The notes under the pieces: generated by a model
What the model was told of the DNA's origin: nothing
Seen by the model: only the letters and a program-made list of their open reading frames with translations
Databases searched by the model: none
Origin: Halonotius pteroides
Lineage (GTDB): Archaea > Halobacteriota > Halobacteria > Halobacteriales > Haloferacaceae
DNA length: 44,062 bases
Direction: 5' to 3'
NCBI RefSeq assembly: GCF_003605635.1
Contig: NZ_QMDW01000020.1
Coordinates: forward strand, 1-44,062
Made by a program: the position numbers and the translations under genes
Part shown: positions 34,156 to 35,743 of the stretch, piece after piece
How positions within the stretch are numbered: the stretch's first letter is position 1
Layout of the letters: every line of letters begins with the position of its first letter

Positions 34156-34608
34156 TTACCCTGTCAGATCCCGTTTTGCGGTGCGAATCGCTTCGCTCCG
34201 GCCTGTGTCCTCAATGTCGGCCAGTGCCTCAGCAGCCTCCAGTGTGCGGACTGATTGATCGAGAAATGAGAGGATATCCCCGGAGTACGCATACAGCATG
34301 TAGTCGTCGCCCATCACATCGACGATGGCGTCAGGGCCGAACCCTTGGGCGCGAAGCTCCAGCAGGTAGTCGATAAATTTCCGTTCGGCACAGCCACAGT
34401 ACGGGTGAGACTCACAGCTACAGTCGAGGAAATCCTCCGAGAAATCGAGGACGCGATCGCGAGTCGTAGTGTCGAGTTTGGCGAGGCTATCGCCGGTAAA
34501 CAGCATATCAAGCGTTGCCCCCGCAAACGCGCTTTTCGGGAAGCTGGTGTCCAACTGCGAGGCGAGCTGGCGATGATTTTTAACGTAGATTTTGTCCGTG
34601 ATGGCCAC
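34156..34608 (-). CDS. DUF5814-type protein
   Basis: 150 residues beginning MAITDKIYVKNHRQLASQLD. A Cys-rich motif CSCESHPYCGCAERKFIDYL near 82-101 probably binds zinc or another metal. The rest is helical and acidic (DAIVDVMGDDYMLYAYSGDI). I recall this as DUF5814, a family found in haloarchaea and sometimes fused to helicases; no function is established. Convergent with the RHH/coiled-coil gene, one base between stops. Confidence 0.75.
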   Translation of the reverse strand: MAITDKIYVKNHRQLASQLDTSFPKSAFAGATLDMLFTGDSLAKLDTTTRDRVLDFSEDFLDCSCESHPYCGCAERKFIDYLLELRAQGFGPDAIVDVMGDDYMLYAYSGDILSFLDQSVRTLEAAEALADIEDTGRSEAIRTAKRDLTG

Positions 34609-34739: not shown

Positions 34740-34813
34740 GTCCGGGGTAGGGTAGTGGACTATCCTTCAGCCTTGTGGAGGCTGAGACGCGGGTTCGATT
34801 CTCGCCCCTGGAC
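34740..34813 (+). tRNA. trnH: tRNA-His (anticodon GTG)
   Basis: Complete cloverleaf: acceptor TCCGGGG/CCCTGGA (with one G-T pair), D arm GGGTAGTGGACTATCC, anticodon stem CAGCC/GGCTG around loop TTGTGGA with anticodon GTG, T arm GCGGG-TTCGATT-CTCGC. The extra G before position 1 (G-1, 34740) is encoded and faces C73 (34813), the identity pair of histidine tRNA. No intron and no encoded CCA. Its 3' end is repeated three more times downstream. Confidence 0.93.
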
Positions 34814-35210
34814 CTTCTCCGAACCTCACCTTATGAGCGTGTGCTCCGCATGGAGCACCGCGAATAGAACACTGTGAGGAGAAGGTCAAAGAAAAGAGAA
34901 TCGAAGCAGGGAGTGAAGCGAACGTAGTGAGCGAAACGACTGAGGTTCGATTCTCGCCCCTGGACCTTTTTGCTCCGAGAACTTACGCGAGGAGCTACAA
35001 GTCCATCTGAAGAGATCGAACCCTGCCAGTCGCGCGCAGCGTCAGCGAGCACGTCTGGCTTCGGTTCGATTCTCGCCCCTGGACCTTTTTGCTCCGAGAA
35101 CTTACGCGAGGAGCTACAAGTCCATCTGAAGAGATCAAGCCCTGCCAGTCGCGCGCAGCGTCAGCGAGCACGTCTGGCTTCGGTTCGATTACTTGCCTCT
35201 GGATCTTCTT
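34792..35210 (+). repeat. repeated tRNA-His 3' ends (att-like scars), incl. 119-bp tandem repeat
   Basis: The T-arm/acceptor segment GGTTCGATTCTCGCCCCTGG plus ACCTT starts at 34792 (in the tRNA) and recurs at 34944 and 35063; a diverged copy (GGTTCGATTACTTGCCTCTGG-type) starts at 35182. Spacing is 152, 119 and 119 bases. Units 34944-35062 and 35063-35181 are nearly identical, differing only around GATCGAACCC versus GATCAAGCCC. Each unit contains the small inverted repeat GCTCC...GGAGC. Such 3'-end copies are what a tRNA-targeting integrase leaves as att sites; no integrase gene remains in the window. Confidence 0.85.
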
Positions 35211-35263: not shown

Positions 35264-35743
35264 ATGACGCCTCGTGGTCGCCGACTACTCGCCGTCGCAC
35301 TCCTCGTTGGGCTGTTGGCCGGTCTCTCAGTGTGGCATGGCACGCTTGTGCCACATGCGACAGACGGGCGATATCCCGGCCCAGAAGCTATCGTGATCAA
35401 TGAGGATGTACCTACGGGTGACGCGGTAACAGTCTGGGGGACGGTCGTTGCAGCTGATCCTGTCGTCATCGAAACCGAACCCCGCGGACAATCCGTTCGA
35501 TTCACGCTAACCGGTGAGCCGGTCGCTGATGTATCGGTTGACACGACCGTGGGTGTGCATGGAACGCTGGCGTCTCCTAACAATGTCGCTGTCGACCATG
35601 CGCTGTTGCAAGAATCGTGGGAACTGCAATATCTCTACGGGATCTCAGCTATCGCCGGACTGTGGGTGCTCGGCCGATTTCTCCGTGGCTGGTACCTGGA
35701 CGGCTCGACACTTTCGTTTCAGCCGCGATCACAAGACGACTGA
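35264..35743 (+). CDS. membrane-anchored OB-like hypothetical protein
   Basis: 159 residues. An N-terminal helix (LLAVALLVGLLAGLSVWHGT, ~8-27), then a beta-rich extracytoplasmic domain of about 80 residues (AVTVWGTVVAADPVVIETEP, VRFTLTGEPVADVSVDTTVG, VHGTLASPNNVAV), which has an OB/CcmE-like rhythm, then a C-terminal helix (YLYGISAIAGLWVLGRFLRG) and a short polar tail. I recognise no named family. Could serve as a membrane-tethered ligand-binding module. It directly follows the tRNA-scar array. Confidence 0.65.
   Translation: MTPRGRRLLAVALLVGLLAGLSVWHGTLVPHATDGRYPGPEAIVINEDVPTGDAVTVWGTVVAADPVVIETEPRGQSVRFTLTGEPVADVSVDTTVGVHGTLASPNNVAVDHALLQESWELQYLYGISAIAGLWVLGRFLRGWYLDGSTLSFQPRSQDD

Follow-up and report, generated by a model that had tools for sequence, protein, structure and literature searches.

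The window analysed here, the whole 44,062-nt stretch of Halonotius pteroides DNA, is an entire contig (C29) of a 3.0-Mb genome in 115 contigs. In it, three hairpin units lie downstream of an intact tRNA-His gene (Table 1). They measure 152, 119 and about 119 bp, and every one closes with a copy of the tRNA tail of about 22 nt, from T54 to the discriminator. An earlier note, made from the letters alone, had counted four copies of the tRNA-His 3′ end (one in the gene, two more exact and one diverged), and this count was confirmed: the 25-mer GGTTCGATTCTCGCCCCTGGACCTT is exact at 34792, 34944 and 35063, and the copy at 35182–35207, read from the sequence, departs from the exact cores by one inserted base and three C-to-T changes. 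The near-perfect 119-bp tandem repeat described there was also recovered (34944–35062 and 35063–35181, 98% identity). The repeated piece, however, is not the “3′ half” of the tRNA but the stretch from the T-loop to the 3′ end, about 22 nt plus TT. No integrase domain was detected in the eight ORFs flanking or overlapping the array, as the note had observed in saying that no integrase is left, and an Rfam search of the window returned tRNA and no other family. The neighbouring genes encode a DUF5814 protein (34156–34608, minus strand) and a 159-aa protein without a Pfam match (35264–35743, plus strand).

Table 1. Features of the tRNA-His array, in positions of the window.
Feature	Position	Strand	Support
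tRNA-His(GTG), intact	34741..34814	+	ARAGORN; Rfam RF00005, 48.4 bits
G-1 of tRNA-His, encoded	34740	+	
Core copy 1, tRNA-His 3′ end (GGTTCGATTCTCGCCCCTGGACCTT)	34792..34816	+	
Unit A, 152 bp: long h1, then tRNA-matched hairpin, core copy 2 last	34817..34968	+	RNA fold z −5.7
First hairpin (h1) of unit A	34824..34879	+	Fold
Left arm of unit A, inverted tRNA-His 3′ end (GGTCA... and GAGAATCGAA)	34883..34905	+	
Core copy 2, exact	34944..34968	+	
Unit B, 119 bp, core copy 3 last	34969..35087	+	RNA fold z −3.6
h1 of unit B (GCTCC...GGAGC)	34972..34995	+	Fold
Left arm of unit B: GTCCA (acceptor part), unpaired spacer, GAGATCGAACC (T-arm part)	35001..35022	+	Fold; covariation, 32 units
Inner hairpin B, conserved (GCCAGTCGCGCGCAGCG...GAGCACGTCTGGC)	35025..35058	+	
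Core copy 3, exact	35063..35087	+	
Unit B′, decaying duplicate of the 119-bp unit, diverged core copy 4 last	35088..35207	+	Fold z only −1.35
Core copy 4, diverged	35182..35207	+	

The order of parts within a unit is constant. The first hairpin (h1) is rich in T and often has tandem G-A below its loop; next come a left arm, reverse-complementary to the 3′ end of the unit's own tRNA, then an inner hairpin and last the core from T54 to the discriminator. The earlier note was right to describe the intervals between cores as a repeat but missed the inverted 3′-end copy inside them, which is significant (p ≤ 0.01) in 43 of 74 haloarchaeal units. In the fold of unit B, a GUCCA/UGGAC acceptor helix leads over an unpaired spacer to a T-arm helix of 11 bp and then to the GCCAG/CUGGC pairing. 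Among the 32 units with a common inner linker, standard pairs occupy 90.7% of pair cells, and covariation scores 0.221, compared with 0.121 after shuffling (0 of 500 shuffles as high) and at most 0.088 when the arm partners are slid; because the sequences are related, these counts do not represent independent events. Covariation of the two arms holds between tRNAs as well as between species. Left arms fit their own T-stem better than those of other tRNAs, and the same is observed, more weakly, for the acceptor, with p-values that ignore relatedness. Inner hairpins hardly differ from one tRNA to another or between families.

Hairpins with the tandem G-A motif were counted separately, and 86 were found in 0.7 Mb against 2–7 for control motifs. 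Two loci (L149:1300–1650 and L106:3420–3620) hold big intergenic multi-hairpin repeats rich in such hairpins, with no detected tRNA adjoining.

The arrangement is not special to tRNA-His. Of the 41 tRNAs in the home genome, 13 have copies of their own 3′ end within 400 bp, far above chance given that the non-cognate control yielded 3 matches in 1342 comparisons within 400 bp. In two other haloarchaea, where tRNAs were picked regardless of arrays, the fractions were 4/10 and 4/11; over the haloarchaeal genomes sampled, roughly one tRNA gene in three carries such units. The sister groups, non-Halobacteria of the same phylum, gave 0 of 34 tRNAs. A search for the array in 147 relatives found matches in 110, many of the weaker ones short; the loci listed lie mostly just 3′ of tRNAs that cover many isotypes, and in most loci copies of the adjoining tRNA's 3′ end recur at intervals of about 90–180 bp. 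The same unit anatomy is shared at about 15 isotypes and in many families.

A scan of one genome per species (84,980 species) with the inner-hairpin pattern CCAGTCGCGCGCARCG-N(0-28)-GAGCACGTCTGG returned about 97 sites, in haloarchaeal DNA throughout. Inspected by eye, all except one or two lead straight into the 3′ end of a tRNA; their orientation to the tRNA never varies, and 78 have a same-strand tRNA less than 1.5 kb upstream. The home genome contains the pattern twice, both times within the tRNA-His array. Within the class, the exact inner motif is present in 122 of 391 genomes, which represent 53 of 86 genera; the reversed pattern has zero matches in the same 391 genomes. One array at a haloarchaeal-type tRNA-Val is filed under a Bacteroidetes MAG (L110, PXTT01000074.1), a probable case of misbinning. 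Copies of tRNA 5′ ends upstream of the gene were sought at 139 tRNAs, with as many as 2 mismatches accepted over 18 nt, and none was found. A 5′-side counterpart of the 3′-end units was noticed in Salinibaculum sp. KK48 (L154:5500–5620, minus strand), where hairpins made of the first 9–11 nt or so of tRNA-Gly precede tRNA-Gly.

Haloarchaeal tRNA genes are integration targets, and the earlier note took the array for att scars accreted from short elements that had integrated and been lost again and again. Ordinary tyrosine-integrase elements do occur at the same kinds of tRNA. In three species, one sits between tRNA-Ala and an array: a Pfam tyrosine-integrase gene stops just before an acceptor core of about 13 nt, and the array follows (L093, L136 and L146, the last with a catalytic domain below the Pfam cut-off). 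At the tRNA-His of a genome inferred to be Halonotius terrestris (G004, L007), a 43-nt half-tRNA-His that begins in the anticodon arm, like the one at Haloquadratum GI3, precedes the array; L007:1–1470 is apparently a large element integrated at tRNA-His that left this half-tRNA before the hairpins. These boundaries fall in the last 13 nt or so of the acceptor arm or in the anticodon arm, not at T54, the boundary of the arrays, and the element ends seen have neither left arm nor inner hairpin. Since integrase elements end elsewhere, the hairpin units are not their scars. The units, moreover, have one anatomy kept across families, and the 119-bp unit is conserved at tRNA-His of other genera and families (94% in an inferred Halohasta, 82% and 75% in others), an outcome that the note itself had set against the scar interpretation, which is thus disfavoured and seems to us quite improbable. 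Proviruses and islands such as GI3 of Haloquadratum (PMC3119063) likewise have a direct repeat of a tRNA 3′ part adjoining the tRNA; the GI3 repeat at tRNA-His is 43 nt long, with copies tens of kb apart that enclose an integrase and cargo, whereas the arrays described here have repeats of about 22 nt, some 120 bp apart, and no genes.

The note's second suggestion, gene-less units moved in trans, fared better: it is possible, and in part we favour it, given modules of the same build that two half-tRNAs and one plasmid tRNA carry in the T-loop, exactly at 53/54. In the home genome, a half-tRNA-Tyr (L082) and a half-tRNA-Val (L068) are each split at 53/54 by a double hairpin of 66–70 bp. In a plasmid of Haloarcula halophila, tRNA-Cys is interrupted at the same point by h1, left arm and inner hairpin B; this is the one direct match found in plasmids, and the phage collection gave none. 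These inserts, together with an array boundary that is always T54, point to targeting of the T-loop. A bulge-helix-bulge intron was considered for the T-loop inserts and is unlikely, because the stem between insert and 3′ exon measures 8–14 bp and not the usual 4. A Haloarcula halophila plasmid (NZ_CP119561.1, L086:2857–5992) carries about 23 tRNA genes beside genes for a type B DNA polymerase and a TROVE-domain protein, and by eye some of these tRNAs appear to hold hairpin inserts in T-, anticodon or D-loops.

The array belongs to a Halobacteria-wide family of gene-less hairpin repeats on tRNA 3′ ends. Our preferred reading, held tentatively and at somewhat less than even confidence, is that the folded DNA strand of these repeats is active. 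A single-stranded unit would fold back so that left arm and core rebuild a double-stranded tRNA end, with its acceptor part, unpaired spacer and T-arm part, and this folded strand would be the active form at the DNA level. A putative recombinase or repair route would then insert the unit between positions 53 and 54 in the T-loop of a tRNA, entire or fragmentary, and the unit's own core would keep the target tRNA whole. Recombination between direct cores would multiply, permute or delete units. The anatomy, the covariation, the distribution, the point of insertion and the permuted arrays are observed; the choice of DNA over RNA, the enzyme and movement today are our interpretation.

Changes of this last kind are seen. 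Unit order differs among congeners (A-B-B′, B-A and A-B-A), and unit pairs were duplicated together at a tRNA-Ser (G124); core-to-core recombination would yield such changes in order and number. Movement to new tRNAs may be rare or past, since inheritance of His units is largely vertical: the nearest foreign unit belongs to the same isoacceptor in 35 of 52 cases against 12 expected, in a sample biased to His, and the His array is judged old from the closeness of its units to the His units of other genera. Where inserted DNA separates an array from its tRNA (L093, L134, L136, L146 and L157), most cores have changed by substitution or indel, which in this small sample looks as though cores stay uniform through contact with the tRNA.

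Neutral amplification is an alternative. Template-switching at the palindromic T-arm followed by unequal crossing-over could generate fold-back repeats that are neither an element nor functional; quasi-palindrome correction can keep the arms matched, and both the joint duplication at tRNA-Ser and the decay of unit B′ would fit. Slippage alone, however, is insufficient for an inner hairpin that is near-identical across tRNAs and families, and the arrays are absent from the sister groups sampled. We regard this explanation as unlikely.

A structured RNA is a more serious candidate, although still doubtful. Read-through from the tRNA promoter would give a transcript in which acceptor/T-arm minihelices are cut by tRNase Z after each core and act as small RNAs, tRNA mimics of the sort proposed for E. 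coli rtT. Units A and B fold with z of −5.7 and −3.6 (−1.35 in the last, decayed unit), the left arm matches the acceptor strand too, unit orientation relative to the tRNA is constant, and the E. coli tyrT repeats, annotated as the small RNA RttR, are alike in anatomy. Against it, no Rfam family covers the units in the window or at 10 array loci, the discriminator is paired in 13 of the 21 units whose acceptor part pairs, which is unlike a tRNA end, and hairpin modules occur within half-tRNAs and a plasmid tRNA as well. Departures from standard pairing speak for both sides. In h1 stems, 20 are G-U and 15 A-C, with no clear G-U excess, the outcome expected if DNA pairing and not RNA pairing is what is kept; in the left arm, G-U-type departures are about 2.4-fold the A-C-type, leaning to RNA. 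With h1 and the long hairpin in conflict, this asymmetry was set aside as a discriminator between RNA and DNA and is not decisive. Also against the DNA reading, viral contigs contained no match to two inner-hairpin patterns, and the phage collection contained no copy. Overall we lean to the DNA fold-back repeat and give an RNA function nearly a third of our confidence.

No account of tRNA-end hairpin arrays was found in the open-access literature. The closest known system is the E. coli tyrT/rtT locus (RttR, RF00391), where tandem non-tRNA units 3′ of a tRNA likewise each close with a copy of the tRNA 3′ end. The present analysis also found an inverted copy within the E. coli units: in K-12 the repeats are spaced at 178 bp, and each holds GCGGGGAAGGAT, an inverted copy of the tRNA-Tyr end (compared with ATCCTTCCCC), with 10 of 12 positions matching and 3–7 of 500 shuffles as good. 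In the fold, GCGGGGAAGGAT pairs with the tRNA-Tyr end, although the structure as a whole has no unusual stability (z −0.9). The Rfam model for RtT, which scores the E. coli units at 134–138 bits as a positive control, has no match in the window or at the 10 haloarchaeal array loci. The E. coli case is one locus of 178-bp units with an annotated sRNA and the tpr ORF, whereas the haloarchaeal arrays stand at many isotypes in a whole class, with units of 90–180 bp and other inner hairpins.

REP/BIME elements are gene-less palindromes at many intergenic places, but their ends are not known to be copied from an adjoining tRNA. Integron attC sites and the folded attP of CTXphi consist of two paired boxes around an unpaired spacer with a variable apical part, span about 60–150 bp and occur in tandem. 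The unit fold is formally equal to these, with boxes and unpaired spacer; it differs from attC/CALIN sites in having no GTTRRRY/RYYYAAC boxes (the core reads GTTCRA...), in boxes that follow each tRNA and in arrays where neither cassette genes nor an integron integrase was seen. Integrons have been described in archaea in a text that names neither tRNA nor Halobacteria (PMC9668308). We consider it rather improbable that the arrays constitute a class-wide, gene-less, integron-like system at tRNA genes, in which folded single-stranded units of about 120 bp would rebuild the tRNA end, be shuffled in tandem by a putative recombinase and use the tRNA 3′ end as landing site. In an RNA version, they would be arrays of tRNA-specific minihelix RNAs.

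What had been a single-locus oddity of E. coli, tyrT/rtT, gains a class-wide archaeal counterpart. The many independent arrays now available for comparison allow tests of how such repeats arose and what they are for. A duplicated tRNA end in a haloarchaeon is not automatically an integration scar, and the arrays point to either a new recombination route at tRNA genes or a new RNA family.
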